From positions 1 through 64,000 of the forward strand of contig WFMF01000405.1 of the NCBI GenBank assembly GCA_011033025.1: a stretch of DNA of 64,000 nucleotides, written 5' to 3'. This stretch comes from Beroe forskalii. Lineage: Eukaryota; Ctenophora; Nuda; Beroida; Beroidae. How positions within the stretch are numbered: position 1 is the stretch's first letter; the number at the start of each line of letters is the position of its first letter. The translations under genes and the position numbers were made by a program. This document shows, piece after piece, positions 6,998 to 62,815 of this stretch. The notes beneath the pieces are model-generated. The model searched no databases. It was not told the DNA's origin and saw nothing but the letters and a program-made list of their open reading frames with translations.

Positions 6998-7960
6998 GTA
7001 TATCAAGAATCTTTGTAGAAGTGAAGGAGAACACTAATACGTTGATGGAGTGGTATTTTGTAAAAATCCGACAAATATCAGCAACAACTACTACACTGCT
7101 CACTTGAATAGCTCTGTTGCAAAAACAAATCAGAAGATCAGCTGAAAACGTCCAGTATAGAAAACAAATCAGAAGATCAGCTGAAAACGTCGAGTATAGA
7201 AAACTATTCGCAGACACACTGGAATACGCATATAAATGTGTGACGGTGGAGTTGCACAATGCAAAAGGATGGTCTACCCACGTCACCCTTCCCCTACCTG
7301 ATATGGTAGTAGTTGCTAAATCTGGGGTTGAGTACAGGATATATAGCCCGCGTCATAATGTTATACTGTGTACGTTATAATCTCATGTCGAGGAGAGCGG
7401 GAGGTTAAATGCAGAGTAGCTGGGGAGTGGGGGCGGGTGCGGCAGGAAACACGGTGAGATATTGTATGTGATCAGATATGTACCGTGAGATGGAAAACGT
7501 CATTCTCAGATCCCTGTCTCCGCGGGGTGTTCTGCTAAGGAAGGTGTGTAGGAGAGGAGCAGGAGGAAGTCAAAGCTCAGAAGTGAGAGGTACTCAATAT
7601 GGTGTTTTATGTGACGGCTGTCAAAAATCCAGATTCCTTTTGAGGCAGTCTTTCGGAAGGTTATATTCCGCAGGTTTAGGCAGGATGGCTTAGTGTGTAG
7701 AATTAGGGTCACGTGGTTAGGTAGGAACGCTGATTGGTAGATCCAGAAGTGGCACGTGAGTCACGTGATAAGTACAGCACAGCTTGGCAATCTCTGTCTA
7801 TCAGTCAGTGCTTGGTTTAGCAATTTGAAAGTGCTGCTTTTAGCGATTGGAAAAAGGTTTTGAGTCGAGGAGTTCATTTGTCGAGGAAGTTTATTTCATT
7901 GAACGATTTTTATAAGATTACACCTTTCTAACATTTCCTGTATATGCTCGTACTCAATAC
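6998..7960. other. no supported gene; short 39-bp duplication
   Basis: At about 7117-7200 a 39-bp segment containing AATCAGAAGATCAGCTGAAA is present twice. A plus-strand open frame (7117-7380) reads through it, repeating 13 residues, but lacks an ATG start and any known domain. The rest, including a plus-strand frame at 7478-7693, shows nothing recognisable. Confidence 0.4.
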
Positions 7961-18900: not shown

Positions 18901-19265
18901 CTCAAAGAACAGGGACACACTTCACTCAAAGAACAGGGACACACCTCACTCAAAGAACAGGGACAAACCTCACTCACAGAACAGGGACACACCTCACTCA
19001 CAGAACAGGGACACACCTCACTCAAAGAACAGGGACACACCTCACTCAAAGAACAGGGACACACCTCACTCACAGAACAGGGACACACCTCACTCAAAGA
19101 ATAGGGACACACCTCACTCACAGAACAGGGACACACCTCACTCAAAGAACAGGGACACACCTCACTCAAAGAACAGGGACACACTTCACTCAAAGAACAG
19201 GGACACACCTCACTCAAAGAACAGGGACACACCTCACTCAAAGAACAGGGACACACCTCACTCAC
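15950..19265. repeat. giant 24-bp minisatellite (about 135 copies)
   Basis: Unit CCTCACTCAAAGAACAGGGA plus CACA. The left third (to about 17100) has many shortened or longer units. The right two thirds are mostly exact, with scattered CTTCACT, CTCACAG and ACAAAC variants. The unit contains no stop in any of the three plus-strand frames and is also open in one minus-strand frame, which explains open frames of over 1,000 codons. Because the repeat frame changes at indels while staying open, I do not call it a protein gene. The right edge stops sharply at CGAAGGGCCGTG. Confidence 0.97.
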
Positions 19266-22924: not shown

Positions 22925-23500
22925 ACTTAACCGGCAACCCACTCTACGTGTCTGAGTAAAACAACCCGCAACCCACTCTACGTGACTGAGTGAAACAACC
23001 CGCAACCCACTCTACGTGTCTGAGTGAAACAACCCGCAACCCACTCTACGTGTCTGAGTGAAACAACCCGCAACCCACTCTACGTGTCTCAGTGAAGCAA
23101 CCCGCAACCCACTCTACGTGTCTGAGTGAAACAACCCGCAACCCACTCTACGTGTCAGAGTGAAACAACCCGTAACCCACTCTACGTGTCTGAGTGAAAC
23201 AACCCGCAACCCACTACGTGTCTGAGTGAAACAACCCGCAACCCACTCTACGTGTCTCAGTGAAGCAACCCGCAACCCACTCTACGTGTCTGAGTGAAAC
23301 AACCCGCAACCCACTCTACGTGTCTGAGTGAAACAACCCGCAACCCACTCTACGTGTCTGAGTGAAACAACCCGCAACCCACTCTACGTGTCTGAGTGAA
23401 ACAACCCGCAACCCACTCCACGTGTCAGAGTGAAACAACCCGCAACCCACTCTACGTGTCTAGTGAAACAACCCGCAACCCACTCTGAGTGAAACATCTC
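22925..23500. repeat. 34-bp minisatellite (about 17 copies)
   Basis: Unit CAACCCGCAACCCACTCTAC plus GTGTCTGAGTGAAA. Copies are nearly identical, with a few single changes (CTCAG, TCAGAG, CCACGTG). The last unit is truncated near 23500. Confidence 0.95.
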
Positions 23501-23959: not shown

Positions 23960-25530
23960 ACTAAAGAAATGTGCAACAAGCCTCAGTTTGCCAATCTATC
24001 TTCTGTGGTCGGAGTCCATCTCATCTGGCATTGTGCCAAAGTTCTACAAGACAGGGTTCATCACTCCGTTATTTAAGAAAGGTAGCCGATGTGAAGCTGC
24101 TAACTACAGACCTGTTACCTTAACTTCACATGTTGTAAAGTCTACGAGAGTAGTCAGAAAACACATGATTCACCATCTGGAATCGAACAATCTACTGACA
24201 GATAAGCAACACGGTTTCAGATCTAACAGAAGCTGCCTGACTCAAATGCTCGACCACTTTGAAGACATATTCGAAGAAGGATTTACTCAGGGGTCAAGAT
24301 ACAGACTCAATATATCTCGATTATGCGAAAGCATTTGATAAAGTGGATCTGGATATTCTCATCAAGAAGCTAAGGAGATATGGCTTTCACGAAAAAGCTA
24401 ATTACGTGGATCCAGTCATTTCTCACGGACCGTGACCAAGTGGTGGTTCTCAATGGTGTCCACTCCGTCATCGCCAAAGTGCTCAGCGGTGTTCCTCAGG
24501 GAAGTGTCCTTGGGCCGCTCTTATTCATTTGTTTATAAATGATTTGGAGCGTGTTGTGCTTGGCATCCAGGGTCAGCTTTTTTGCAGACGACACTCGAGT
24601 TTCCAAACAGATTGGCTGCTACGACGACTGTATGCTGCTTCAGGAAGACTTGAACAGAATTCTCAACTGGTCACGTGAAAATAACATGGAACTTCATGAG
24701 CAGAAATTTGAGCTCTTGAATCACTTCCATAACAGGAAAAGCTCATTCCTTGAACTCCCCTTCTTCACTGAAGCTTTGACTTACAAGGTTTCAAACGATG
24801 AATCTCTTTACCCTGTGGAGAACGTTAGAGATCTTGTGTTCAGGTATCAAGTGATTTGAGTTGGTCTAGACATATCGCAACCACCGTGTCAAAAGCTAGA
24901 GCACGCTATATCATGGGTTTTCAGTGTCTTCAAAACTCGAGACAGTATGGTCATGACTACCATGTATAAGTCACTGGTGAGGAGTACACTAGAGTACTGC
25001 TGTCCCTGTGGAACCCTAGCAAGGTCACTGAGATCCAGCTTTTAGAAGGGGTACAAAGAACTTTCACCAGTCGTGTAGTTGGTCTACGTCATCTCAACTA
25101 TTGGGAAAGACTAGCTAAGCTAAAGCTGATGTCACTGCAACGCAGAAGAGAAAGGTACATCATTCTGATGATGGAAGATTCTCCATAAAGTTGTACCAAA
25201 TTGCTGTGGAATCGAATTCAAGGGAGACATCGAGGCAAGGTACAATAGCCCTCATACCTTCTTTGTCTAAGTTGAGCACAGTAAGTAATCAGACGCTATA
25301 TGACAGATCATTTGCAGTCCAAGGACCAAAACTGTGGAACACTATACCGGGCGCAGTTAAACGCTGAAACATTTGATTCGTTTAAAATCAATTTATTCAG
25401 ATTATGTTGCTTTGATGCCGGACAACCCACCGGTCACTGGCTACAGCTGCAATTGGTCAAACTCTCTGGTAGACTACTCACCAGCGCGGTGGTCGGACCT
25501 CTGATGACCTTTTCGACTCTCGGATAAACT
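23960..25530 (+). pseudogene. non-LTR retrotransposon ORF2 fragment (Jockey/CR1-like), broken
   Basis: Reverse-transcriptase motifs appear in the correct order but in shifting frames. They are LFKKGSRCEAANYRPVTLTS and LTDKQHGFRSNRSCLTQ (frame at 23988-24338), YLDYAKAFDKVDLDIL (about 24310), GVPQGSVLGPLLF (about 24490) and the catalytic FADDT (about 24582). The 3' part (25280-25440) keeps FAVQGPKLWNT and TFDSFKINLF, typical of LINE C-termini. At least three frameshifts or stops break it. There is no endonuclease domain and no clear poly-A tail, so it is a dead 5'-truncated insertion. Confidence 0.85.
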
Positions 25531-36029: not shown

Positions 36030-36266
36030 TCTCCCATATAAACGGGAGCCTTCATTATCTATGACAATGACGTCACTCAGAAAAATATAATTAAACGCAC
36101 CTAGCGCTTTAAGGACTAGGGTTAGGGTCAGGATTAGGGTCAGGATTTGTTAGGGTTAGGGTTAGGATTAAGGTTAGGGTTTTGGTTAGGGCTATGGTTA
36201 GGTTTAGGATACAGAAAAATTGACGTTTAGATCTGTGACGTCACTCAGAGCCGTTTATATGGGAGA
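36030..36266. mobile_element. TIR element enclosing telomere-like repeats
   Basis: The left arm TCTCCCATATAAACGG and TGACGTCACTCAG (36030-36080) face TGACGTCACTCAG and CCGTTTATATGGGAGA (36236-36266). Between them lies degenerate TTAGGG array. Non-coding, 237 bp. Confidence 0.75.
36114..36209 (+). repeat. interstitial telomere-like (TTAGGG)n array
   Basis: About 14 loose copies of GTTAGGG, with variants such as GTCAGGATTAGGG and GGTTTTGGTTAGGG. The TTAGGG type fits a metazoan genome. The array sits inside the TIR element at 36030-36266. Confidence 0.85.
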
Positions 36267-44268: not shown

Positions 44269-44467
44269 TCACCATAAGGAGGAGTTGACGTTGAGGAAGA
44301 AGAGGCGTTCCAACTCCTGGAGGGAGTTGCACTGCTGGAAGGAGTTGACGCTCACCGTCCACTCCAGGAAGACTTTGTCTACGGGGGGCGGGCAGGCCGG
44401 GATGGAACACAGGTAGTAGGACAGCTGGGCCAGACACCGGTACGTGCCGCACTTCTCCTGCCAGTAC
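44269..44467 (-). CDS. hAT/ZBED gene exon 12 (end of hAT dimerisation domain)
   Basis: 66 codons including TGA at 44271-44269. RYWQEKCGTYRCLAQLSYYL then CSIPACPPPVDKVFLEW is the classical hAT C-terminal pattern (W....Y..L..LA...L.IPA...P.ERVF). Asp-Lys replaces Glu-Arg. Confidence 0.9.
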
Positions 44468-47400
44468 CTGGACAGGGCAGTAGGTTAGAGAGGGGGTGAG
44501 GAGAGGGGGTTTAGAGAGGGTGGTTAGAGAGAGGGTTTAAATAGGGATGTAGAGAGGAGGTGTAGAGGGGGTGTTAAAGAGGGGTTTAGGGAGGTGGTTT
44601 AGACTTAGAGAGGGGTTAAAGAGGGGGTTAACGAGGGGCGTGTAGAAAGGGGGTTAGAAAGAGTTGTAGAGAGGGGTTTAGAAAGGGGATTTACGGTACG
44701 GAGGGAGGTTAGAGAGGGGTTTCAGATAGGGGGTTCAGAGAAAAGTGTTCAGTTAGTGAAATGGTACCTGGAGAGGGCAGGGTTTATAGAAGAGTTTCTA
44801 AAGGCCTGTAACCAAGGAGTTACACCAGATGTAACAAAACAAAGAGGCGAGAAGTCCAGGATTTAAGGTCATTCAAACTACAAAGAGAGGAATACCAAGT
44901 GTAGCATCGTTTATTTGTGTTATTGTTGGAATACCGGGATATCAAGCTAAGAACACCGTATCTATACCCCACAAAGCACACTCACCGGAAGGGACACTCG
45001 TAGTCGAGGAGGAGCTGCTCTCTGACGAAGTCGTTAAACTCCAGAAGCAGAGCGCTGCTCGGCTTCACGTCTTTCTCATCCGACTTCTCTAGGAACGAGA
45101 ATAGTTTTCTCCTCTTGCTTGCTTGCTCGTTCACCTGAAAACAGGGTTCAGTTAAACCTGGCAATGGGGTGATATAAATGAATCATTGGGGCCTGGGGAG
45201 CGCTCTCAAATACCTGATCTTTAGTTCTAATAAAGTAATCAGCGAGTATCCAGTTTACATGGTGTTTTCTTGAATGTAAATTCGATGATTAATAATCCTT
45301 TGATTTCAACTGATAATCCAGTGCAGCACCCCCCTACATACCAGCGTTACTAAAAGTAATTTGGAGCGTGCAAGGAGCTCGTGCTAAACCGTAGAATATT
45401 AATTCCAGGGAACAAAGGTATGTACTGGACCAGATTAATACTGCAAATTCCCCCGATAATGGATTCCTTTCAGTTTATTAACACCCGAGTCGAAATGGAA
45501 AATATTAGAATAAACTGATAATCCGATTTTAAGTCGTCTAAAAATGATCTAAACCATAAATACTGAATTTCATTTAATTTAGACTGGACGAGATAAATGC
45601 AAATTATTCCGTAATTCGTTTAACTTTGAGATAACTTTTCTTATCACGTGCTTATTAAATTCAAATACGAATATATTTTGGATCGTGTGCACCCAAACCC
45701 AAACACCCCTGCCACATATGGATTTAACTCAGTAATAACTAAGTGTTCCCTGAAGTACTAAGTCCCCCCTACCTTGGCATCGTTCACGTTCTCGTCAGCT
45801 TTGTAGAAGTTAGGAGGCGGGGAGGGGTTGCTGATCCGGAGTTCCTGAGCAAGTTCCTCCAGGCGGCTCTGCACTCTGTTCTCCTCCTGAGCTCCCCGAC
45901 ACCACCTCATCTTGAAACGCGGGTCTAGCGCAGCGGCTTCCTGGGGTAAATGGTAAGGTCAAAGAAATGGTGTGTGAGGGAGAGGGGGTGAAATGGTGAG
46001 GTCAAAGAAATGGGGGGAGAGGGAGTGGGGGGGTAAAATGGCGAGGGGGAGGTCAAAGAAATGGTGGTGGGAGAGGGTGTAAAATGTTGAATGGGAAGAA
46101 ATGGTGGGAGAGGGAGAGGGGGTAAAATAGTGAGGAGAGAGGTCAAAGAAACGTGATTTAGGAAGGAAAAGGCGGGTTAAATAATATGAGGGAGGGGGGT
46201 GAAGAGCTCGAGTATTAAAAGTTTTAGGAAAGGGAATGGGGATGCAAGTATTCGTTAGTTTGGTATAAGTGGTAAAAGCGGCATATCAGCCAAGGGATAA
46301 AGAAGCATTCCGCATGAGGTGATCCTGGTGATAATTCCACATTGTTATCAGTGTGGCTTCCTTCACACGTGTGATAAGGGGACGTAGTCAGGGAATGTTC
46401 AGTGAACTTGAGGCACTGATATGGAGGGGGAAATGGGTACTGTGAAAAGGGCCGGGAGGGGGATATAATGGCGTACGACTATTTTTAGCTTTTACCCCAC
46501 GGCATCTTACCCCAGACCTCTGTCCAGATCCAAACCATAACCATAACATACCCAAGAGCCTTATTGCAACCCAACCCCTAACTTTTGCGTGGAGGTAAAA
46601 TATTGCGAAATAAAGTGTCGTGAGGTGAAGTGTCACGAAATGAAGTGTCGTGGGGTGAAGTGTGGTGAGGTGGAAAGTCTGTTCCCAAATCCCAGAGAAA
46701 GAGGGGGGAGCACGGAAGTCAGAAAGAGAAAAAGGAAAGTAAGATGTGTACCTGGTAGTACTTCTGCCGTAGGAGGGGAGTGAGGTGTTTCTGGAGGGCA
46801 GTGTTGAGACTCAGTACCAACTCCCCAAGGTGGATGGACTTTATGTCCCGGAGCAGTTGGTCCAGAGAGAGGATACTCGGGACTATGATGCCCACACTCG
46901 GGGTCGTCTCACTCGAGATTAGGTTGTAGACCTGGACATTAATAGTGCGTTAGTCATTAAATCAGGAGGGAGCTTGAGATAATGGTAAAGGCATTAGCAA
47001 AGCAATGAACTCATGATATTATAGTGGATCTAGAAGTAGAATCATTATATCTCCCCGCCATGATGCTTCCCTGAAGAGAGGATTGGTACGGCCTGGTACG
47101 AGACACTGATACGCAGAGCCACAAGAGAGTTCCTACAGCAAGACATATGGCTTGAGGAGGCTCCGCAATACGAAACATGTCGAATAACGTGATTCTAACA
47201 ATACGTAGTTCCCATTCCCGGGTTAGGTGAACAGTTCATTGTCCGATGCTCGTTACGGTATCGTTATTACAGGGATCAGGGCTTGGTGGCCATTTGGGGA
47301 AAACGCTGGCATTGGGGAGTTCATTTGGCTGTGCGCGGCTAAAGTGCAATGTATTATTTATTTGCGGGCTTACCGAGTGGAGCCTGTTAAATAAAAGTTA

Positions 47401-50400
47401 AGTTAGTTAGTCGAGCATTATTATATGAAGTTATTAGTCACAAACAGGCAGACTTATTGACTACAAATAATTAGGATTGTTGTTGTGTTTGCAGCTACAT
47501 CCTACGGCTCTTTTAACCACCAATTATTAATCAATACTTTGTAGAATAACAAAGCAAGCGACTAGTACGCTATAGCTGGAACTGCTCCAGCTCCTTTATA
47601 ATATGCTCAGATTACAGCTAATTAATTAATTCCGCGGCTAATTATCATCGGGTGGTGACAGGCAAATAGTTGGGTAGTTACACAGTGAATTGCCGCGCAT
47701 TAATCTGAGTAATTGCTAGTGATCAGGAGCGCGTTTAAGCGACAAAGTGTCGAGTGTAATGTATTAGTCGGAGTATGTAGTGTACTATCTGATGTAGAGC
47801 CTGAAGTTAGTAGTGAATTGAAGGCGTAATTTAAGATTGATTAGGGTAATTGTTTGAGCTGAATTAGAGTTCTATGAACCCTCATTAGCTCCATGTTATT
47901 CTACTTCGCTTCTCTTGTTATCCGCAAAGACAATGCTTAATATAATAAGCTAAGTGCCACTATTAATAATTAACTAGTTAAGCTGCTTGACAAACAAGGG
48001 GCAGTAAAAACAATGGTCCCAGGTAAAGTTAATTAAAGGGTGAATGTGAAAAAACACCAGGGCACCAGGCTAAGTTGCTGTGTAGCTTGAGCGTAGTAGG
48101 TGGTTTAAGTTGGTAGGTGGCGTAAACAGCGTTTTAGGGATGTTATTTTCCTAAGTATCGTAGGAATGACGTATTGGTCAGGAAACTAACACTTGATAAT
48201 GGGTGATAACATGGCCGAGTCATGAGCTTCTAATGGACAGAGCAGTATTTGGGCAAGTGCAGACACACACACTCACAGTGGCAAAACAAAGCTCGCGTCT
48301 TTCTGCTATAATGGCGAAACTCACAATAAAGAACAATGACCACATATTACTACGTCAATTAAAAAATAAAAGCTACACGAGATACATGGTATGGTGGTAA
48401 AATGTAAATGTTTATGCTGCTGAGCCTACAAAAGTTCAGGACGAGCTGAAGGAGACTAAGGAGAGACACCGAGTCTCCAATCGGAGACTGTGAGACGGCT
48501 GCTGTGTGAATACACGGAGAATTAAACACTGCTCACCTCCTCGAAGGGCTCCAGGATGTCCACCAGCTCCACAGCCAGGGCCAGGTCTTGTAGGATGGAG
48601 ATGTTGTGGGCGGAGAAGGGAGAGGAGGGGCCCTCAGACTTGCCGTCCTTCCCTGGGGGGCTCACTCCTGGGCTCAGCTTTACTGTAGGACTGCTGAGCT
48701 GCGAAGTGGGCACATTCAGCCCGTTCAGGGTGCCGTTCAGTGTGGAGCTCAGCCCGTTAAATGTGGCGTTCAGTCCGTTGAGGCCCACGTGGAGCCCATT
48801 CAATCCGGCCTTCAGGCCGTTAAAGCCGCCCAAAGTGTTGCTCAGGCTCGTATTAAGTCCATTAAGGTTGAGACTGGCGTTGAGTCCATTAAGAGACACG
48901 TTGAGACTACTGTCTAAGGAGTTTGCTTGGGAGTGTGGCGCTGTGTTTGCGGTGGAGACTCCCCCGGCCACTGAGGCTGGCACTCCGTTGTGGAAGGGGC
49001 TGTTTAGTCGGGGGTGGAGGTGAGGAGCCCGTGGGTTAGGGAGGTGGGCAGTCCGTTGCTCAGGGAGGACAGGAGACTGCTCTTGGGGGAGGTAGCCCCA
49101 CTCACTGGCGCCGCCAGACTCCCTGTGTTGAGAGTGGAGTTGAGGGTGGCTGTGGTGGCTGAGGTGGCAGCAGGGTTCAGGGTTACTCCGGCAGACGACA
49201 AGGTGGCACTCAGCTCAGCTGCGCTCAGTCCCACAGCCCCGGGAGCTGCTATGCCCGTGTTGGAGATGCCCGTGTTGAGGGTGGATATCCCCGAGCTGGG
49301 AGTGGATATCCGCACGTTGGAGGAGACGCCCCCGTGAGTGGTGAGGCCCCCTCCGAGGGGGGAGGTGAGAGTGGTAGAGTTGATCCCCGGACCACTCCCC
49401 ATGGTCGTGCTGGACACGCCGTTGTTAGACAGGGGAGTCTTGGGCGAGGTGGCCAGCTCTGACTCAGACTTGATTGCTACCACGTCTTTGTTGTTGTTGA
49501 TAAACACTGAAATGTATGTTTTGTAAATTGACGTTATACCAGAAATATAGGAAGATTTCCAACAATCATACTTATTTTAGAGGCCTTGTGAGTCAAGAGT
49601 AGCTTGATAAACGTTATTATGTCAAATCAAAAGTAAATCTCAATATTACCATATACCATAAGTACGTGAATTTGAAGTGAATCAATCGTAATAAACTGTT
49701 TTACGCTTTATCATCATTAAATTTTAATACAGGTTTGTACTTTGATTAAATAGTTTGGGAGTTCCCACAAGAAATTATTTGCGCAAACTCGAGACATTCA
49801 GGAAATAAACACGATCATTGGCCCTGAATTTTGACAGGATTGAGAAGGGTCGCATCCTTTCTGTCAGCAGCAAATCACTGTCTTAATGAGAAAATTTCAA
49901 TATTCATAAATCGCAGATCTCAATCTTATTACTTTCTGATATCAAAAGCTTTGACCCCAGAAAGTGATAAAATTTATCGCGCGAGTGAATAACCCGTGGT
50001 TTAAATACATTCACATGCCTAAGACATGGACTGATCAGGGTGCAGCAATTCTGTACTGTGGTTAGTAAATAAAAATAATTTTGGAGAATGGACATCATAA
50101 AAAATTAACCCTTCAAGCAATCTCCCTTTGCTCCTTTGAAGCAAAAGTGAAATCAGGGATGTCACGGGATAATGAATGCCTAGTTTTTCACTCTTGATTA
50201 ACTCGACACAAATAAGAATAATGTCGGCTTGGATAAACGTGTTCCAAAACTTTGAACTGACCTGGTGCAGAGCTAAAACAGTAAAACACCTGCAGATTAA
50301 AACTTTCAAAACTTTCATTCCATGCAATGGGAGAGGTGTAGTTGTTTTAGGGGTTTTCAAAACTTGGTTCCATGATAACCTACAAGGCAGTCCCAAGTCA

Positions 50401-53400
50401 GTCAAGTAGGTCCTGCCCCAAAAAGCCATAGCAAAGTGTGCACGAGTTTTAACTACAGCAGATCACTGATTTACCTCTGAGTTTGGCCAGGACTTGGAGC
50501 CAGTAGGGGGTAAAGAGCGGTCCATCTTGGGGCATCGATTGATAGCAAACACCAGCAGTCGAGTTAGAGTTTGGGGTTGTTCCATCCTGGGCTGTTGGGA
50601 ACGCTCGTCCAGCAGTCGAGTTAGTTTGGGGTTGTTCAGCGCTTGGTGGATAACCTACAAGGCAGTCACAGTCAAGTATTCCCGTCTTGGGGAGGGGGAG
50701 GGGGGTTGCAAAGTGTGAACGGCGAGTATAAATGTATATTGTAGCCATCTATTGATGAACCTGTAACAAGTCACAAATAGGAGATATTTCTTAAAACACG
50801 AGATCCTCCCTCTTTACCTCGTATCAGTTAAATCAGGAGTTCTCCATCCCTCCCTTGTATCTCACCTTGGTTATGACGTAAGCGAAGGAGGAGTCAGTGT
50901 CAGTGGTATCAGCACCCGTCTGAGTGTCACCCTCAGAAGAAGTGGGTTCATTGTCTGCCCCTGACTTAGCTGCCCCTGACAACCTGGAGTACAACGAGTG
51001 TTACCAATGTGTGGGTCCCAGTACGAGTTATTCGAGAAAATACTTCCTCGGATTAAAAACGAATATTGGAGTTCTTTTTTGATCCAGTGCTACAGCTGCT
51101 AGCTATTGAATTTTCATCGAATGGAAGTCTTCACTTCATCACTGGCACCATAATATAACTGTTTCCTGGCAATTAGAAACACAATATGTAAAACTCACTT
51201 AGAGTTCTTTGTGAAGTCCTCCAGAGAAAGCTTGTTGACCTTCTCGTAGTAGATCTTGTTAGTGATACCGTACATTGTCTTGGTTTGCTCCACCAGATTC
51301 TCCCATTCCATTCCCGGAGAGATAACATAAACAGCAAGGAGGTGATGCTTCAACTCCCAGTACACACTGAGAACAGACATCAGTTAGAGAAAAGACATCA
51401 GTTAGGGAAGTGAGAACAAGTACACACTGAGAACAGACATCAGTTAGGTAAGTGAGAACAAGTACACACTGAGAACAGACATCAGTTAGGGAAGTGATGA
51501 CAAGTACACACTGAGAACAGACATCAGTTAGGGAAGTGATAACAATTACACACTGACAACAGACATCAGTTACTAGGGAAGTGATAACAAGTACACACTG
51601 AGAACAGACATCAGTTAGGGAAGTGATAACAAGTACACACTGAGAACAGACATCAGTTAGGGAAGTGAGAACAAGTATACACTGAGAACAGACATCAGTT
51701 AGGGAAGTGATAACAAGTACACACTGAGAACAGACATCAGTTAGTGATAACAAGTACACGCTGAGAACAGACATCAGTTAGAGAAGTGATGAAAAGTACA
51801 CACTGAGAACAGACATCGGTTAGGGAAGTGAAAACAAGTACACACTGAAAACAGACATCAGTTAAGGAAGTGATAACAAGTACATGCTGAGAACAGACAT
51901 CAGTTAGGGAAGTGACATCAGTTAGGGAAGTGAGAACAAGTACACGCTGAGAAGAGACATCAGTTAGGGAAGTGATAACAAGTACACACTGAGAACAGAC
52001 ATCAGTTAGTGATAACAAGTACACACTGAGAACAGACATCGGTTAGGGAAGTGAAAACAAGTACACACTGAAAACAGACATCAGTTAAGGAAGTGATAAC
52101 AAGTACATGCTGAGAACAGACATCAGTTAGGGAAGTGACATCAGTTAGGGAAGTGAGAACAAGTACACGCTGAGAAGAGACATTAGTTAGGGAAGTGACA
52201 ACAAATACACACTGAGAACAGACATCAGTTAGGAAGAGTGATAACAAGTACACACTGAGAACAGACATCAGTTAGGGAAGTGATAACAAGTACACACTGA
52301 GAGCAGACATCAGTTAGGGAAGTGAGAACAAGTACACTGAGAAAAGACATCAGTTAGGGGAGTGATAACAAGTACACACTGAGAACAGACATCAGTTAGG
52401 GAAGTGATAACAAGTACACACTGAGAGCAGACATCAGTTAGGGAAGTGAGAACAAGTACACTGAGAAAAGACATCAGTTAGGGGAGTGATGACAAGTACA
52501 CTGAGAAAAGACATCAGTTAGGGGAGTGATGACAAGTACACGCTGAGAACAGACATCAGTTAGGGAAGTGATAACAAGTACACGCTGAGAACAGACATCA
52601 GTTAGGGAAGTGAGAACAAGTACACGCTGAGAACAGACATCAGTTAGGGAATTATTAACAAGTGGTGCTTCAATTCCAGTACAGACTGGAATCAAGTACC
52701 AGTTAGAGACTTGCAAACAAGTGATTTTTCAACTCTCACTACACAGTGAGAAAAAATCAGTTAGATACCTGCCAATGAAATTAATTTTTTGGAAATTAAT
52801 TTTTTCGGCCCGCCCCGCCCAATGGTCCTATTAATTAGTGCAATGAGGTGCTTTTGAAGTAAAAGTGAAATGTATTTCTCCCTGCCTACATCACTTCCCT
52901 CCGGACATCAGTAGGTCTATAGTAGTGGGTGTAGTCTGGCAGACAACTCAGCCAGACACGGCTGGTATTTAACGTGTGTTATGGGAGGATGGGCACATTG
53001 TGTACTGATCAGTATGGAAATCAAATATTCAAATAGACGGCAGTTCAGGCAATAATCTTGTGGAAATGTGGACGCAGGATTGAACTGATCTGATTATATT
53101 CCGAGATAAAATCCCCTGTCAATAGATAGATATAACTAAACTATTCCAGGACATTACTCGGCACGACTGACTCTGACGCAATATCTCAATATCAAGGAGA
53201 TAACTATTATGGGAGGAGATGTATGGGAATAGGGTGCCAATGGGGACCTAAATGTAAATTTATTTACTTTACACTTATTTCAAGATTAATGACGAGTTAC
53301 TTGCAGATTATGAGTGATAAACGCGTCAAAAGTAGTTCGTGGTATTGTTAATTTTAGAACAAGGATGAATGAAAATTTCATTAACAATTCTTAAGTCAGA

Positions 53401-56400
53401 GTAAAATAATTCATTTAATTCGATTTCATATTGAATTTCCTCTTCAGACTGGTCAAAACACGTCAACTCACATACATCTCACACCGGGGGATATCAGTGA
53501 GTAAGTGCACAGACCTTATGCCCACTTACTCACGTGGTGGTCGTGCTCCAAAATTCACGAATGCAGTTACTCACATTGCAGTTACTCACAGGGAATTCTT
53601 GGAAAAAGGGTGGTGTCCCAAGGTCATGGTGAATATCACTTACTCATTTGTGAGTAAGTGCAGCAAAAACTGCAATATATGTAGCTTTGTCGGGATGTAA
53701 ATTTAGGTATTTCAAAGCATTTCGATGTGGTATACGATTGTATCTCAAAATTGAAGTCACAACTAATTATAGAACTATATCTAGATCTATATCTAGCCAG
53801 TTCATTTAGATATTGATTACACGACTACACCATATCATACATACATATTAAGATATTACATTATCAGCATTACTATCTCTATACCTACTCTCTACACAAT
53901 CTACTTGGCGCGGATATTGATCGTGTACTGAGCCGGTCTGGAGACAAAATACTGAACGGTACTGAAGCATAACAGTAACTTCAATGAGATTAGAATGTTT
54001 TTCTAATCCCGGCCAATCCCAGAATACCTTAGTACACTTAAGAACGGCGTCACTTAATTAGTGCGGTTTGGGAAAAACCGACCAATACCTAATGAGAAAT
54101 TTTAACAATTTCGTGAATTTTGCGTTTTCGAATTCGTTTTTTACATATTACGTTCTCAATCTATCGATTATCGTTTTCGATCTCAAATAAAAACCGCACA
54201 ATAAAGTCTTTTCCGCCAATTACGTGATGCCGTTCTTAGGTACTTTGATACGGCTTTCTGTCGTCGACCATACCTACTGAGTTTTAAAAGGTACTTTTTC
54301 GTTGTAAAATTTGAATGTTCGACAATCAACAGTTTTTCCCATAATAAAATCAAACGGTTAGGTTATTAAATATTCATAATTTGTCTTCTTGTGTGCAGAT
54401 CCATACCATGATTGTTATGGTTGAGATTCAAGCTCGTCGTGACTCGTGAATAATAATTTTTTCATAATTTCTCCAATGAACTATAGAAAACAAATTAAAC
54501 ATTCCTAACATGAAAGGGATCATATTGCTATCAATACATATTTTAATCTATGAACTACAGTACAGAAGTGCTGTAGTCCGATCAGTCCATATCTTTTGGT
54601 TACAATATAATATATTAAGTATCCCTATCCTACCACTATTTTATAGCTTATGCGGGTGTATTAGTGAACCAATAGAAAGTTATAGAAAGTTATTCTTTTA
54701 TTATTATATCAAGGCAGAAATTTTCATTTGCTGATCTGATCTAGCGTGCAAAATCTACCATTCATCAAAATGTTGCATTTTGTTGAAATAAGATTCTGTC
54801 ATAACTGTCTAAATATTCAAATTAGCCGATATTTTGGGGTGGTGCCTGAAAATTTTTTCAAAAATCACTTAGTATTAATTGGATTATTGTGAGTAACTGC
54901 AATATGGGGTGGGTGGTATCTCTGAAATTTGGCTAAATGCACTTTCTCACCATATATGTCTGTGCACTTACTCACTGATATCCCCCGATCACACTGATAC
55001 ATGTCAGGAATGAGAAGCATTAAATTAAAAGACACATTATGTGCATTGGGGTGACAGATTGAGAATTCCATAGAAAAATCGGAAAAACCGTCATCTAACA
55101 GTTTTAAAGCTATGGCTTACCTGTAGTATTTAGATGGGTTTGAATGTGCTCGGTGCCAGTGAAATGGAGTTCACTGCTGGTGAGTAAATATCTTGTTATG
55201 ATAGGGCTCGTTGAGAAATTAACGTGCGTTATCAGTCAATCAAACACAGTTGCTGGATAGTTGACTTTTTTCAATTGAATTGATTGAAGCCCAAGCTGGG
55301 GCACTCACACAGTTCCCAAAAGCATGAGAGCTATCACTGCCAGCTCTGTTTACCCTAATTGTTGAATTGAGATTGAATGTAAATGACAATTTTGTACACA
55401 AATTCCAGAGCTTATTATCAGATTTACCGTTTACGAATTTTACCGGTTACGAATCCCAATGAAACACACCATATTATGGAGGTAAATACTAATTTTTTTA
55501 AAGATTTTGGCTGCTTTTGCTTTTTGAACACATCAGGACTACAAACACCAAATTGAATCATGGAAATTTATCTGCTCTCTTGTGACAACGATGTAACTCC
55601 AAATTATTATCACATATAACGTGTAGTTTAAGGAGCACCTCCTGGTTTTAAGGACGAGCTGGAGGTACCTTAAAAATTCGCCGTTTAAGGAGCAGCTAAA
55701 GGACCAACTTAAGGACGAGGTGGATTGGGTAATACCGATTTTTCGGGAATTTTAAGGTCGACCTAACTCGCTTAGGAGCACCTTAAAATCGCCTCAAAGG
55801 AGCACATTGGGTAATACGGAATTTTAAGGTGGACCTTAAACTGCAGTTTGGGCCGTTTTAAGGAGCACCTAGGGCTAAAGGTCGACCTTAAACGGTTGTG
55901 TAATCCGGCCCTTAAGGTAGTAATTTTCATCATTATGACAATTTAATTACGGTAATCTGATAGTATCAAGAAAACAAAACAAGCCAATATCTTACCTGAG
56001 ATAGTAAGCAGTGACAGCTACGAAGCAGTTGGAGATAACTGAGATCTGGAGGTTGACTACGGGAACCAACGACAGTTGCGAGATAATCGAGTCTTTGACA
56101 TGCTCGTATGCTGTGGGACGGAAATACACGATTAAAAAGAGAGGTGGAATAATGAGAAGTGTAGCAGCAGAACTATAATATTAGATTTTATGAGTGGTCG
56201 AAAATCGTAAAAACAGAGAGCTCAGCTCACATAAATAGTCCATTATCTATTTTATGTATTATGCACGCTTTAAATATTCAAGAATTGAGCGAAAATGGTT
56301 TGGAGCATTTGGCACGTTTGGGAACCATTCATTTGACATTCAAGGTGTGAAAGTTCTCATGATTGACAACACTCCATTGACTGGTACATCTCTCTCACTC

Positions 56401-59400
56401 ACCAGAAGGAATGAGAGTGTCTCTGATCTGGCTGGCGGTTGGGAGACCAAAGAAGGGGTGCATGGCTCTCATCAGGTTCCTGAAGCCCTTCCTGTTGATG
56501 ACGGAGGCAGGCTGGATGTCCATAACGAGGTAGTTGAGAACTGATCTCATGATGGCTACTTGGCGGTCAGCATCTGACTGTCCCATGTTTGTCAGGGAGG
56601 CAAGGCTGGTTGGAGTGAGGCCTTCTTTCAAGGGGTTAGCCATGAACTCCCTCTTAGGTATCTGAGGGAGGAATGGGGTTAGCCATGAACTCTCTTAGGT
56701 ATCTGAAGGAGGAATGGGGTTAGCCATGAACTCCCTCTTAGGTATCTGAGGGAGGAATGGGGTTAAATATGAACTCTCTTAGGTATCTGAAGGAGGAATG
56801 GGGTTAGCCATGAACTCCCTCTTAGGTATCTGAGGGAGGAATGGGGTTAGCCATGAACTCTCTCTTAGGTATCTGAGGGAGGAATGGGGTTAGCCATGAA
56901 CTCCCTCTTAGGTATCTGAGGGAGGAATGGGGTTAGCCATAAACTCCCTCTTAGGTATCTGGGGAGGAATAAGCCATGAACTCCCTCTTAGGTATCTGAG
57001 GGAGGAATGGGGTTAGCCATGAACTCCCTCTTAGGTATCTGGGGGAGGAATGGGGTTAGCCATGAACTCCCTCTTAGGTATCTGAGGGAAGAATGGGGTT
57101 AGCCATGAACTCCCTCTTAGGTTTCTGAGGGAGGAATGGGGTTAGCCATGAACTCTCTTTTAGGTATCAGAGGGAGGAATGGGGTTAGCCATGAACTCCC
57201 TCTTAGGTATCTGAGGGAGGAATGGGGTTAGCCATGAACTCCCTCTTAGGTATCTGAGGGAGGAATGGGGTTAGCCATGAACTCCCTCTTAGGTATCTGA
57301 GGGAGGAATGGGGTTAGCCATGAACTCCCTCTTAGGTATCTGAGGGTAGGAATGGGGTTAGCCATGAACTCCCTCTTAGGTATCTGAGGGTAGGAATGGG
57401 GTTAGCCATGAACTCCCTCTTAGGTATCTGAGGGTAGGAATGGGGTTAACCATGAACTCCCTCTTAGGTATCTGAGGGAGGAATGGGGTTAGCCATGAAC
57501 TCTCTCTTAGGTATCTGAGGGAGGAATGGGGTTAGCCATGAACTCCCTCTTAGGTATCTGAGGGAGGAATGGGGTTAGCCATGAACTCCCTCTTAGGTAT
57601 CTGGGGGAGGAATGGGGTTAGCCATGAACTCCCTCTTAGGTATCTGAGGGAGGAATGGGGTTAGCCATGAACTCCCTCTTAGGTGTCTGGGGGAGGAATG
57701 GGGTCATACAAGACTGAAGGGCATTGAATGATTGGGTTGCATTGTTAATTTAGTGATGCAATAATACGTAGTTGAATTAACGAATGGGGATTGCACTAAG
57801 GTTTCATTGGGAGGTGATGCAATATGAAGTAGGGGTGGGGCCGTAAGGTATAATGAGGTATAGGGGTTTATTAAATCACTGCTTTTCTGGGATAGGGCGA
57901 TAGTCCGTAGATATATAATATATATTTTATGCTTCGCAACGGGAAGGGATTTAGAAGTACTATTTGGGCGACTTTACGTTGGAGTTAGACGATAAGGAAG
58001 TGTGTGTGTGTGTGCTGCCTCCCAGGCTCCTCCTCCTCAGGATAGGAGAGACTACCTTGAGATTCACTATAGTTCGTAAAATATGCGTCTGTCCATTTTT
58101 AAGAAGGTATTACATTCACTTCCCCTCCTGCTCATACATAATAGACAAGTCCTTATTTTATTATACGAAGTTTTGGTTTCACTTGATCTATCCACTAACG
58201 TTAAACTCGTGATTACCATGAATGTCCGGACTAGCCAGACAGGATTCCTGGAGTTCAGTTACTCTAGACAGAAACATAATATTTCTTATCATGTCCTTAT
58301 CCCTGACCGTTTTTAAATTAAACAATCACTTCACTTAGGTTAGTAATTTAAACCCGTCATTCGCTGTATTATTCATCGGTTTAAGGGCCGCAACCGAGCA
58401 ACTTGCATCATTAATATCAGGTCACGTGACGTTCCCTAGCTAAACCTCAAATAACGAGTCTAAATAGTAAATATTTAAGAATAATGACATTAGCCCAGAG
58501 CAGTAAGCTCTACAAATATATTCCCTCCTCCGATAATGATGGCTGAATTTAGTTGGAAAAGAAAAGTGGACATAAAATCATTGGTAGATGACGCACTGAA
58601 CCACTCAGGCTAAGGCTTACAGTTCTCCTAACTAGTCGATACTTTACTAAATTCTCATAAAGTCGAACTATTAACATATTATAGTATCAGTTTAGAGTAC
58701 CCTATTTCCGATAAAGAGAGATTGTTATTGTGGTCAATTAAAACAACCAGACTGGTGACGGACAGTCGGCCATTAACCCGGAGGTAAGGCACTGCCCGAG
58801 CAGGTCGTTATCCGAACACTTGAAACATTAACTGCCGATACCGATTGTTTACATAATGTGCCTACAATGTTACACTCACGTGACACCAACTGCGCGCTCT
58901 CGTGCGCCAGTAATGGAGCAACTTATTGGAGGCATTTACCTAGGACAATATGCCAAGGACAAGCAATCAATGATTAACAAATAATAGGCCTACATACCAG
59001 TGATTATATGAATAGCCGAGGACAAGCCGCGGAGTTCGCGGAGCCTAGGATTTCAAGTCAAGTCGCTCGCAAGTCACGAACAATAGGGTGGGCAGTCAAG
59101 AGTTGCAACACCTCCTCACAAAAACAGGGAGCCGCCTGACTCCAGAGGTCGCATAATGCGGATATAATACAGTGACTGGTGGTGGGATTTAATGCTTATA
59201 GGGAGGGAGGAGGTGAGAGGAGGAGGAGGAGGAGGAGGAGGAGGTCTTGATATACACATTAGTAATAGAGTATATATTATATTATTATATCATAGAGGAG
59301 GAGATTCGTACCAAAGAACCTCATGTGCTGTGCAGCAACTCGAGGAGGAACTAATTACAAAACGGGAATCCTAACCGATAAATGAGATGTATCAAGTGTA

Positions 59401-61278
59401 ATGGAGGGGAAGGAGGAGGAGAATGTTAAACGGTTACTAAAATGACAAACCAGATAGTTAATCGTTACAATTTGGAGGTTACAACTCCATCACGAGGAGC
59501 TCCTAACTATAATAGCAATCATTCAAACAACGGGAAACGAGTTTCAGGAATCCATTATACTGTCATCACGATGCTGGTATATTATATTGTATCATTGAAC
59601 TGCTACTGCTACTTTTACTGATTTGTATTCCGCTAATTCGAAACAGAATTCGAAAATGAGATCATCATATTATATAAACGTATATGATAAACATGCAGCT
59701 CGTGGACTGATCTAGACTCCTAGTTGCACCACTAAAATAATGTTTCAAATTGTATACAATCGCTCAGGTTGCTATAATAAACGGAGGTTCACGCTAGGGG
59801 AGCGCGAGAAGAAAGAACCGCTGTAATAATTGTACCTAATTTTGGTTAAATAGCCCGTGCTGTTAGACTCCTGCGGGAGACTTAACAGGGTTCCATCATC
59901 GAGACATGCATTGTACACGTGTTAAAATGCAGGGTCTGCGGTTGTGCCAGCAGATCCTATTCATCAAATTAGGGGTTTTATGACCAGAGATATTTTACCT
60001 CCAGGGTTTCCAACCTGCGGGGTTTTCTAACCTGCCAGGAGATATGATTAACTTGCGGGGGTTTCTAACCTGCGCAGAAGATATGATTAACCTATGGGGT
60101 TTTCTAACCTGTGCTGAATAGATGGTTAAGCTATGGGGTTTTCTAACCTGTACAGGAGATATGATTAACCTCCGGGGTTTTCTAATTTCTAACCTGCGCT
60201 GAAGATATGAATAACCTGCGGTGTTTCTAACTTGCCCAGGGGATATGATTAACATGCCGGGTTTTCTAACCTGCGCTGAAGAGATGGAGGAGAGGTAGTT
60301 TCTGCCGTAGGCGGGCAGCATGGAGGTGCCTTGGTGGCGGGACAGGAAGGATGTGGCTTTCTCAGCCCGCTCTGCTTTCTTGCGCGCCCAGTCGTGCAGC
60401 AGTTCTGGGTGCACGTGCTGAGGGGGAATGATGTGTGAAATGTGCGAAATAGGAGGGGTGAAAGCAGAGGAAGTTTCACTGTGAGGTATTCAGTGAAGCA
60501 CATGGTCACAGCCCGCCCATTCTGGAAAATTGAAGTATGGAGTAGTGAAACATGAACAATATACGAGGGTGTGGCGACAATCTCTCTGATAATGTGCAGT
60601 TTGGGGAGTGGTTTTGTCTACATACAGACTAAGGGCTGAGAACCAAGGGAGAGACGGGTAAAATGTTTCTTTTTAATAACTTGACTGGAGCGGAGCAGTA
60701 AATAGCTGCGGACGGCGGACCTCTCCTAACTCCTTAATCTATTCACGTCGACATGTCACAATCTACTGGTCACATACTTACCGTCGTTGTGTGACTCAGA
60801 TAGCTACTCAAAATGAAAATTCTTAACACACCTTTTTTCTGAATAACATGACCAAACCCTCTGGACCAATTTAGCAATTAATGCTCCATAAAATACGGCT
60901 TTTTTCTCCAATGTCTAATGACAGATTTCTGGTTGGACATAATTTTAACAACCAATCGACAAAATTATGGAACCAAAAAACCCTATTTATCATTCAATAA
61001 TGGCCGATTGTACCTAATGCACCTGGGGTGATATCCGGTTCAAACTTTAGTCACAATTCACAGTTTTATTTACAGAGTTTCTCTCGTCTCCTCATATAAC
61101 ATACCTTGAGGTGAGTGATGAAGTTGCTGTTGACGCTTGCCGTCCCCTTGTAGTCTCTCTGACAGATCTTACACCTCCTGATGGTTCGTTTCTTGCCGTC
61201 CACGAACTCCTCACGGACTAGGTCAAAGTACTTGTGTTCGATCTTAGCGTCCATTCCGTACTTGTGCTCTAGTTCCAT
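44269..61278 (-). CDS. domesticated hAT-transposase / ZBED-type zinc finger protein (12 exons, ~942 aa)
   Basis: Twelve exons with GT-AG borders chain in phase on the minus strand: 61278-61105, 60417-60271, 56661-56403, 56110-55996, 51366-51199, 50983-50866, 50654-50475, 49506-48537, 46931-46752, 45940-45773, 45134-44986, 44467-44269. Domains in order: a BED zinc finger (about residues 36-61, CKIC...HLKHVHP), a hAT core (about 108-390), a low-complexity insertion (about 390-690), more hAT core (about 690-790, with LDPRFKMRW near 776) and a hAT C-terminal dimerisation region (about 850-910, CPFRYWQEK...SIPACPPPVDKVF). Acidic catalytic positions expected near VNLQISVISN and after YGITNKIYYE are not seen. 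With the many introns, this argues for a host gene that binds DNA and dimerises rather than transposes. Exons 7 and 8 each need one extra base; assembly error is likely. An upstream non-coding exon may exist. Confidence 0.85.
44468..44790 (-). repeat. purine-rich repeat with a second copy of the exon 12 acceptor
   Basis: Degenerate GGTTTAGAGAGGGGG units (plus strand) begin at the exon 12 acceptor. Near 44764, TACCTGGAGAGGGCAGGG repeats the acceptor region TACCTGGACAGGGCAGTA of 44464. The array is thus bracketed by two copies of the splice junction. Confidence 0.75.
44986..45134 (-). CDS. hAT/ZBED gene exon 11 (start of dimerisation region)
   Basis: 149 bases, acceptor CCTGTTTTCAG and donor CTTCCG/GTGAGTG. 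NEQASKRRKLFSFLEKSDE contains a basic KRRK stretch that may serve nuclear import. ALLLEFNDFVREQLLLDYEC leads into the hAT C-terminal dimerisation domain. Confidence 0.85.
45180..45720 (-). other. intron 10 of the hAT/ZBED gene
   Basis: Unique-looking, no tandem array or TIR noticed. Confidence 0.4.
45773..45940 (-). CDS. hAT/ZBED gene exon 10 (LDPRFK motif)
   Basis: 56 codons, phase 0 at both ends. AAALDPRFKMRWC is the conserved LDPRFK signature of hAT transposases. It is followed by a charged helix (VQSRLEELAQEL) and a linker. Acceptor CCATTTACCCCAG, donor GCCAAG/GTAGGG. Confidence 0.9.
45941..46160 (-). repeat. ~45-bp repeat at the exon 10 acceptor
   Basis: About five degenerate copies of minus-strand CTCCCACCATTTCTTTGACC plus TCACCATTTTACCCC. 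The copy nearest exon 10 supplies the real pyrimidine tract and AG. Other copies have CCCCC where the AG should be. Confidence 0.8.
46590..46685. repeat. short GAAGTGTCGTGAGGT-type repeat in intron 9
   Basis: Four to five imperfect 15-20-bp units. They lie near the exon 9 donor but do not include it. Confidence 0.7.
46752..46931 (-). CDS. hAT/ZBED gene exon 9
   Basis: 60 codons, phase 0 at both ends, donor CTACCAG/GTACAC. VYNLISSETTPSVGIIVPSI then LSLDQLLRDIKS follows the hAT pattern (LSGE.YPTLS.V.P....L...L). The end, LTPLLRQKYYQ, runs into EAAALDPRFK of exon 10. Confidence 0.85.
47000..48500 (-). other. intron 8 of the hAT/ZBED gene
   Basis: Unique-looking AT-rich intron with no array or TIR element noticed, unlike most other introns of this gene. 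A plus-strand frame at 48203-48400 has no domain. Confidence 0.4.
48537..49506 (-). CDS. hAT/ZBED gene exon 8 (low-complexity insertion plus hAT helix)
   Basis: 970 bases, acceptor ACATACATTTCAG and donor CGAGGAG/GTGAGC. It encodes Ser/Thr/Gly/Asn/Leu-rich sequence with repeats such as LNGLNASLNLNGLNTSL. It ends in SILQDLALAVELVDILEPFE, which matches the hAT helix before the ...LSGE...PT.S segment. The frame breaks near 49004 next to a run of five C; one more C would join the two open frames without a stop. The repeats have grown inside coding sequence. Confidence 0.7.
50475..50654 (-). CDS. hAT/ZBED gene exon 7 (internal duplication, one-base frameshift)
   Basis: The acceptor is TGCCTTGTAG; the donor is CTCAGAG/GTAAAT. 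It opens as VIHQALNNPKLTRLLDE, but only a different frame (DGPLFTPYWLQVLAKLR) joins exon 8 in phase. One base is therefore missing in the assembly or the allele. Inside, ACAACCCCAAACT...AACTCGACTGCTGG is present twice about 60 bp apart. A stray copy of the acceptor (GACTGCCTTGTAGGTTATC) lies at about 50375-50400. Confidence 0.6.
50866..50983 (-). CDS. hAT/ZBED gene exon 6
   Basis: 118 bases, acceptor GTACTCCAG and donor AACCAAG/GTGAGA. It encodes an acidic Ser/Thr/Asp stretch (LSGAAKSGADNEPTSSEGDT) ending in SSFAYVITK, which runs on in phase into VIHQALNNPKLTRLLDE of exon 7. Active hATs usually have a His/Cys-bearing helix here. Confidence 0.75.
51199..51366 (-). CDS. hAT/ZBED gene exon 5 (hAT core)
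   Basis: 168 bases, phase 2 in and 2 out. VYWELKHHLLAVYVISPGME and TMYGITNKIYYEKV align in order with the hAT strand ...W.L....L....-...L..WGI.DKI.... The DNASN motif that should follow is replaced by KVNKLSLEDFTKN, so the second catalytic acid is missing. The acceptor TTCTCAG/TGTGTACT heads a tandem array. Confidence 0.85.
51367..52760 (-). repeat. 42-bp minisatellite copying the exon 5 acceptor junction
   Basis: About 31 copies. On the minus strand the unit holds CTAACTGATGTCTGTTCTCAG-type sequence, then TGTGTACTTG and TTATCACTTCC. This reproduces the branch/AG region and first eight exon bases. The distal end (52660-52760) holds diverged copies that also include GGTGCTTCAATTCC, equivalent to exon positions about 9-25. 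The array therefore arose from the exon edge. Confidence 0.95.
53485..54987. mobile_element. non-autonomous DNA transposon with perfect 30-bp TIRs (intron 4)
   Basis: The left end CGGGGGATATCAGTGAGTAA then GTGCACAGAC is repeated exactly, inverted, at 54958-54987. Subterminal TGAGTAAGTG and GTTACTCAC motifs recur. The flanks share TCACAC, a possible short target duplication with a one-base offset. The interior encodes no recognised transposase. Perfect ends suggest fairly recent activity. Confidence 0.8.
54037..54243. mobile_element. nested inverted-repeat element
   Basis: CTTAAGAACGGCGTCACTTA at the left faces TTACGTGATGCCGTTCTTAG at the right, about 207 bp apart, inside the larger transposon. 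Probably a MITE that inserted into it. Confidence 0.65.
55627..55917. repeat. degenerate inverted repeat in intron 4
   Basis: Repeated TTTTAAGGAGCACCT and TTAAGGTCGACCTTAAA-like segments in both orientations. Probably an old foldback element inside the intron. No coding content. Confidence 0.6.
55996..56110 (-). CDS. hAT/ZBED gene exon 4 (first RNase H-like strands)
   Basis: 115 bases, phases 1 in and 2 out, acceptor CCGTCCCACAG and donor CTCAG/GTAAGA. It encodes AYEHVKDSIISQL and VNLQISVISNCFVAVTAYYL. Active hATs have an Asp in the ...D.WTS... motif here; the matching place reads ISNCF, so the catalytic acid appears lost. Confidence 0.85.
56403..56661 (-). CDS. hAT/ZBED gene exon 3 (hAT core start)
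   Basis: 86 codons plus one base, from the acceptor CCTCCCTCAG to the donor CTTCTG/GTGAGTG. MDIQPASVINRKGFRNLMRA and HPFFGLPTASQIRDTLIPS match the conserved opening of hAT transposases (a region ahead of the catalytic core). This is the strongest family evidence with exons 10-12. Confidence 0.9.
56662..57705 (-). repeat. 43-bp minisatellite copying the exon 3 acceptor junction
   Basis: About 24 copies. On the minus strand each unit contains CCATTCCTCCCTCAG, then ATACCTAAGAGGGAGTTCAT and GGCTAACC. These are the pyrimidine tract, the AG and the first ~28 exon bases. The copy nearest the gene is the real exon edge. Since 43 is not a multiple of 3, each copy used as acceptor would change the frame. 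Confidence 0.95.
57706..59989 (-). other. middle of intron 2 of the hAT/ZBED gene
   Basis: Mostly unassigned. A (GGA)n microsatellite lies at 59196-59246. No other exon-like segment was convincing. Confidence 0.45.
59196..59246. repeat. (GGA)n microsatellite
   Basis: Run of GGA/GGAGGT units on the plus strand. Confidence 0.9.
59990..60270 (-). repeat. ~39-bp minisatellite copying the exon 2 donor junction
   Basis: About seven degenerate copies of the minus-strand unit TCTTCAGCGCAGGTTAGAAA plus CCCCGCAGGTTAATCATA. The unit includes the last exon 2 bases and the 5' splice site. The minus strand stays open through the array (13 residues per unit), so read-through or alternative donor use would be tolerated for most of its length. 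Confidence 0.9.
60271..60417 (-). CDS. hAT/ZBED gene exon 2 (second half of BED finger)
   Basis: 49 codons from the acceptor ATTCCCCCTCAG to the donor TCAGCGCAG/GTTAGAAA. HVHPELLHDWARKKAE completes the zinc-binding histidines. The donor is weak (GTTAGA) and is copied in a tandem array directly downstream. Confidence 0.8.
61105..61278 (-). CDS. hAT/ZBED gene exon 1 (start, first half of BED finger)
   Basis: 58 codons, ATG to the donor CTCAAG/GTATG. CKICQRDYKGTASVNSNFIT supplies the CxxC pair (C36, C39), and H56 lies at the exon end. An acceptor-like CTCCCCTCTAG sits just before the ATG, so the true first exon may be an untranslated one further upstream. Confidence 0.8.
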
Positions 61279-62444: not shown

Positions 62445-62815
62445 CAATGAGCCGGTTACACGGTTGGAGCAAGACACATCTCCGGGTTGGAGCAAGACCC
62501 ACCTCTGGGCGGGAGCAAGACCCACCTCCGGGTGGGAACAAGACCCACCTCCGGGTTGGAGCAAGACCTACCTCCGGGCGGGAGCAAGTCCCACCTCAGG
62601 GTGAGAGCAAGACCCACCTCCGGGCGGGAGCAAGACCCATCCCCGTGTTGGAGCAAGACCCACCTCCGGGCGGGAGCAAGACCCACCTCCGGGCGGGAGC
62701 AAGACCCACCTCCGGGCAGGAGCAAGACCCACCTCCGGGCGGGAGCAAGACCCACCTCAGAAAAACACCGGAAGTCAAGTCGGGATCAGGACCTATCCCC
62801 CAGGAAGATGACATG
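62445..62815 (+). CDS. possible plus-strand exon made largely of a minisatellite
   Basis: An acceptor-like CTGCGGAAAGCAACAG precedes ATG at 62447. A strong donor, ACATG/GTAAGTG, follows at 62816. The frame is open throughout and repeats KTHLRAGARPTSGREQDPPP-like sequence. Without a known domain or partner exon it may be only an open repeat. Confidence 0.25.
62462..62765. repeat. 23-bp minisatellite (about 13 copies)
   Basis: Unit CCACCTCCGGGCGGGAGCAA plus GAC. Variants include GGGTTGG and CCCGTGTTGG. It ends 50 bp before the splice-donor-like site at 62816. Confidence 0.95.

Follow-up and report, generated by a model that had tools for sequence, protein, structure and literature searches.

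Minisatellite-like tandem repeats that lie across an intron-exon boundary are known from amphioxus (Branchiostoma) as "mirages," and the sections of two accounts on which we draw (PMC3087553, PMC3902484) give as examples Adh3, the globins BflGb6 and BflGb9, troponin C, and PGBD5, the cases of PGBD5 and troponin C having been added by the second (PMC3902484). As described in those sections (PMC3087553, PMC3902484), both 5' and 3' boundaries are affected, AG/GT is kept in many of the copies, normal splicing is undisturbed, and copy number is unstable between alleles; the units measure 10 to 72 bp in Adh3, 60 and 108 bp in PGBD5, and ∼150 to 160 bp in the globins. Our search for ctenophore intron minisatellites found no account within the literature searched, and the part of the Hormiphora genome paper available to us, which reports 14 Mb (13%) of tandem repeats, leaves boundary-spanning arrays unmentioned.

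Here, we describe arrays at exon edges in a 64,000-nucleotide stretch of the ctenophore Beroe forskalii (the window, on contig C476 of an assembly of 216 Mb in 1134 contigs) and in other genes of the same genome. We propose that those spanning a junction are probably mirages, i.e., local tandem duplications that included the exon-intron border and expanded as minisatellites into the intron.

Results

The principal gene of this study is a 12-exon gene for a zf-BED protein on the minus strand (44272..61278), delineated from phase-consistent splicing, matches to the Mnemiopsis protein P0001, and the zf-BED domain. Its exons are E1 to E6 at 61278-61105, 60417-60271, 56661-56403, 56110-55996, 51366-51199, and 50983-50866 and E7 to E12 at 50654-50475, 49506-48537, 46931-46752, 45940-45773, 45134-44986, and 44467-44272, the start of E7 having been shifted from 50586 to 50654 on comparison with P0001. 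The introns reach 4.6 kb, and the exon phases agree across the 22 junctions except for the E7 duplication described below and a 1-nt frame break in E8 (∼49015, beside a run of C), which may be an assembly error or a real break. The spliced product, a continuous conserved protein if the exon-proximal junction copies are used, has three matches in total: a Mnemiopsis leidyi hypothetical protein, which is the best (67% over 100%), a Bolinopsis microptera protein (66% over 62%), and an unnamed protein (73% over 42%). At an E value of ≤0.001, Pfam gives the BED zinc finger as the sole domain; the hAT identity proposed for this gene in the first-pass annotation is not supported. When P0001 was compared with the genome, the ten strongest of 39 matches were ten of the exons of this gene and the remaining 29 were weak and confined to the middle of the protein; the gene thus appears to be single copy.

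One exon-internal duplication was caught in the window, within E7 (50551..50638, minus strand, ∼60 bp apart), by eye on comparing the sequence with P0001 and P0003. By the same comparison, it shifts the reading frame relative to the Mnemiopsis and Bolinopsis proteins, and the use of an alternative acceptor inside the duplication (50586, CAGCCCAG/GATGG, the slash marking the junction) would keep the frame at the cost of the conserved exon start.

We searched with 28-mers centered on each of the 22 junctions for copies within 3 kb at ≥75% identity and combined this search with repeat detection. Array units contain the junction at 3 of the 22 junctions, all on the minus strand. The E2 donor array (60012..60287) has a 39-bp unit that includes CAG/GTTAGAAAAC, with 4 copies of the junction 28-mer; the E3 acceptor array (56632..57704) has ∼25 repeats of a 43-bp unit made up of ∼14 nt of intron end and ∼29 nt of exon start, with 24 copies of the 28-mer; and the E5 acceptor array (51359..52663) has ∼30 repeats of a 42-bp unit made up of ∼33 nt of intron end and ∼9 nt of exon start, with 26 copies. 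At the other 19 junctions, no 28-mer copy was found within 3 kb at ≥75% identity except for one of the E7 acceptor. This single degenerate copy (50366..50393, minus strand, 0.79 over 28 bp) sits in intron 7, 275 bp downstream of the E7 acceptor, in agreement with the stray copy noticed earlier.

Junction copying had been claimed for five arrays of this gene, and the claim holds for the three arrays above, whereas those at E10 and E12 stop before their acceptors, at distances of 7 and 20 bp, respectively. The E10 array (45948..46135, minus strand, period 43, from repeat detection) has units in which, as read from the sequence, the pyrimidine tract is present and AG/exon is absent. At E12, repeat detection gives a 13-bp array (44488..44731, minus strand) whose unit resembles, by eye, a branch site plus pyrimidine tract. 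The copies said to bracket this acceptor come down to one degenerate far copy (CTGCCCTCTCCAG/GTACCATT, ∼44763..44785, minus strand), which lies beyond the 13-bp array and was seen by eye, not recovered by the repeat and 28-mer searches.

Arrays of the E12 kind form a second class, located just upstream of acceptors, with motifs that look by eye like branch sites and pyrimidine tracts (CTAAC, TAACCCC) and with the AG not reached; they occur at L053 2329-2439, L056 400-513 (minus strand), L022 1433-1498, and window 44488-44731. The window also holds large minisatellites outside the zf-BED gene, at 16133-19264 (24/48 bp), 22929-23486 (34 bp), 62466-62758 (23 bp), and 1711-2177 (15 bp), none of them beside an assigned exon, an open frame at 23961-24335 that resembles by eye a non-LTR retrotransposon reverse transcriptase, and an interstitial telomere-like repeat (TAGGGT) at 36112-36208.

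Comparison genes chosen without regard to repeats (among them dyneins, MCM4, and UBLCP1) provided 67 introns and one lone acceptor, or 135 junctions, which we screened for local direct repeats with a lag of 12 to 200 whose match extends at least 4 bases to either side of the junction. Ten of these junctions are duplicated (7.4%; 95% interval, 3.6 to 13.2%), 5 donors and 5 acceptors, to be set beside 1 donor and 2 acceptors in the window. With at least 8 bases required on each side, the count is 5/135, the other five of the ten having fewer than 8 on the shorter side; junction overlap as measured is a lower bound, because matched stretches end at mismatches.

The composition of this sample was settled as follows. 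Nearly complete MCM4 and UBLCP1 genes could be read in three 20-kb stretches taken at arbitrary coordinates, and four more such stretches held few coding segments. Dynein heavy-chain exons were found by a DHC_N2 profile search, and the junctions of loci L047, L049, L052, and L053 were adjusted by eye before repeat detection. Doubtful dynein introns in L050 (the first), L051 (two), L056 (the second), and L057 (the first) were dropped before counting, as were the MCM4 intron that follows exon I, its donor being unplaceable, and the paralogue L054, which is not independent. Of 45 introns predicted ab initio, 10 were kept, 10 fell in genes already annotated by hand, and 25 resembled antisense shadows or poor peptides, a choice made by eye and not blind, the array lists being already known.

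In MCM4, an array of ∼2.7 copies lies at a donor, and acceptors carry a duplication (2 copies) and an array of 24 copies. UBLCP1 has one 2-copy acceptor duplication as well as repeats at two donors, that of exon 4 (2 weak copies) and that of exon 5 (a 15-bp array that takes in 2 bp of the exon), both scored as touching and not as spanning. The MCM4 and UBLCP1 products align unbroken to solved relatives over the duplicated junctions when the exon-proximal copy is used. The dynein heavy-chain cases are L050 (one donor and one acceptor), L052, L053, and L058, the last being an acceptor array with 57 bases on the shorter junction side in one matched stretch, which enters the junction count and, its intron being cut, not the array placement test. 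Two further spanning arrays lie in incomplete introns and were therefore not entered in the statistics: a 53-bp array of ∼18 copies over the donor of a GPCR-like exon (L002, by eye), a biased case since it was found via an arbitrary donor-like 14-mer, and a 56-bp unit in ∼14 copies over the acceptor of a gelsolin-like exon (L010, by eye).

L052 and L054 form an inverted dynein paralogue pair (G000:C712:66700-78200) with a donor array common to both, and L054 carries an additional 36-bp array upstream of the preceding exon. In two other dynein heavy-chain copies (G000:C534:78781-79992 and C1024:1426554-1427768), open frames of 3010 and 3715 codons include DHC_N2, a domain that is interrupted by introns in paralogues.

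To place the arrays, we used a null model in which a founding segment, one unit long, falls with uniform probability anywhere on an intron and its edges. In complete introns of the independent gene sample, 17 of 23 arrays span an edge or lie within 20 bp of one versus 7.49 expected (P = 2.6e-5), a count in which arrays of one gene may be nonindependent. As the first-pass annotation had supposed, arrays favor exon edges, at or close to which they lie with roughly twice the frequency expected from geometry, and a further bias is needed, either mutational or in retention. The narrower claim, of units that copy the junction itself at a rate above chance, survives in other genes at the lenient threshold of at least 4 bases (9/23 versus 4.46, P = 0.016), less clearly at 6 (7/23 versus 3.91, P = 0.068), and not at 8 (4/23 versus 3.40, P = 0.45) or 10 (4/23 versus 2.96, P = 0.34). 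When the repeat score is made stricter, still at 4 bases, 9/18 arrays span versus 3.76 expected (P = 0.003); split by source at 4 bases, the spanning arrays are 4/12 in dyneins (P = 0.11) and 5/11 in other genes (P = 0.069). The spanning excess over the geometric null is therefore fragile, and junction copying beyond geometric expectation is not secure outside the zf-BED gene. Within that gene, the three spanning arrays (3/8 versus 0.30 expected, P = 0.002, in a gene selected for these arrays), each of which covers 8 bases or more on either side of the junction, are striking, but the gene was picked for them.

These counts bear on two variants of our explanation. In the simpler one, duplication is uniform and local and purifying selection alone shapes the outcome, such that exon-internal duplications die and junctions have no special part. 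With a median of 301 bp (65 introns), the introns are short, and a 45-bp duplication would therefore often cross an edge anyway; the spanning count at 8 bases agrees with this geometry, and the one exon-internal duplication in E7 is of the kind expected. However, uniform duplication alone underpredicts the arrays near edges and is therefore incomplete, and it fits poorly with the spanning arrays in the long introns of the window, subject to the way in which that gene was chosen. We consider this variant possible, without leaning toward it. The other variant invokes hot spots linked to splicing or transcription (R-loops, paused polymerase, or nucleosome edges at exon borders), with introns growing from their ends. 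The near-edge excess would follow from it, as would the involvement of donors and acceptors alike among the cases outside the window, which also means that a slippery pyrimidine tract alone is insufficient. Nevertheless, the excess of deeply spanning arrays disappears at 8 bases and some arrays sit in mid-intron, and we regard hot spots as rather unlikely.

The units that span junctions measure 32 to 74 bp. Three arrays, among them those of E3 and E5, were tested for genome-wide matches to their units (≤3 mismatches), and all the matches (22/22, 27/27, and 21/21) fell within the array of origin, at its own junction, which indicates that these three units arose on the spot. In UBLCP1 (L033), the heptamer GCATGAA occurs at 7174, 7224, and 7270, flanking two copies of a duplicated block, a pattern characteristic of a tandem duplication bounded by microhomology; the outer edges of the E3 array share ACCCC. 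Within an intron, donor and acceptor resemble each other no more than randomly paired ones do (9.80/30 versus 9.60/30 over 65 introns), unlike in introns made by duplicating a proto-splice site. These two results bear on the proposal that the arrays are mobile elements of the introner kind or that the introns were recently created by tandem duplication, models that would both predict intronic repeats with splice signals. A dispersed mobile unit is rejected by the privacy of the three tested units and intron birth by duplication is rejected by the lack of homology between intron ends, and we attach very little credence to either origin.

The decoy splice sites inside the arrays are largely intact. 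In an ungapped comparison of seven arrays, AG/GT was kept in 118 of 123 copies, with the exception of the MADF gene, in which both copies have lost GT. Under gapped alignment of eight arrays, AG/GT was changed at 7/303 sites versus 241/7452 sites overall, and the decoy dinucleotides have thus not been purged. Within the decoys, changes are slightly rarer in the exon-derived half than in the intron-derived half (common odds ratio, 0.75; stratified P = 0.048). This conservation could be taken to mean that the arrays are selected as backup or regulatory splice sites, but under gapped alignment none of the eight arrays differs significantly between halves when taken singly (smallest P = 0.051; exon lower in 5/8; pooled P = 0.0005) and the periods of the spanning arrays have no preference for multiples of three (3/12). 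Since the ungapped signal of conserved dinucleotides and exon halves weakened under gapped alignment, selection on the decoys is largely rejected and we judge it improbable; a weak difference between exon and intron halves remains, which strict neutrality does not predict.

The donor array shared by the inverted dynein paralogues has ∼11 copies in one and ∼27 in the other, which suggests that copy number moves, at least between paralogues. The frame break in E8 and the broken E7 could be read as signs that the arrays are assembly artefacts, but the copies of an array are not identical, arrays are present on several contigs, and the array common to the inverted paralogues differs between them in copy number. 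We find an artefactual origin highly implausible.

Discussion

The spanning arrays studied here contain the junction, affect both boundary types, and occur in several unrelated genes, and the three units tested are of local origin. As a working model for their formation as mirages, we propose that microhomology-mediated slippage or template switching may found a tandem duplication, which slippage or unequal exchange could then enlarge. Duplications inside exons would be removed by selection, whereas those within introns or across an edge would be tolerated, the latter because the exon-proximal site is used, with exon definition holding the spliceosome on that copy. Each such event would lengthen the intron from its end, and the earlier suggestion that introns grow by copying their ends fits as a description. 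A bolder version, to which we give limited credit, is that in this genome minisatellites arise preferentially at exon-intron borders by some mechanism coupled to transcription or splicing; introns would then grow from their ends, and several percent of junctions would carry near-perfect decoys that have to be rejected by position alone.

If the rate of 10/135 junctions, obtained from a small sample, holds, this genome holds a great many natural experiments, each with a true splice site beside up to dozens of near-identical decoys, and such sets make the rule for choosing among equal splice sites (exon definition or proximity) directly testable. Arrays that copy junctions also represent a concrete route for intron lengthening.

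Introner elements are repeated sequences with splice signals that are dispersed over many loci; the ctenophore arrays share with them the repetition of splice signals, whereas each of the three tested units is private to one junction. In models by Zhuo (2007) and by Gao and Lynch (2009), introns reportedly derive from tandem arrays or internal gene duplication, and intron ends match. Tandem duplication with splice signals in genes is common to those models and to our arrays, but the ctenophore intron ends do not match.

The closest likeness is to the amphioxus mirages as far as the consulted sections describe them, in that the ctenophore units span the boundary, donors and acceptors are both hit, and many units keep AG/GT. 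The differences from those sections concern the host, a ctenophore, the size of the units, the availability of a frequency among sampled junctions, and the presence of several arrays in one gene; moreover, the amphioxus mirages come with haplotype and RT-PCR data, the ctenophore arrays with DNA sequence. An estimate of the junction rate and a placement test such as ours were not found in the parts of the published accounts of mirages that we consulted. Boundary-spanning minisatellites are thus a known phenomenon, met here in several unrelated genes of a distant animal lineage, and what was a lancelet curiosity becomes a feature seen in that lineage as well.
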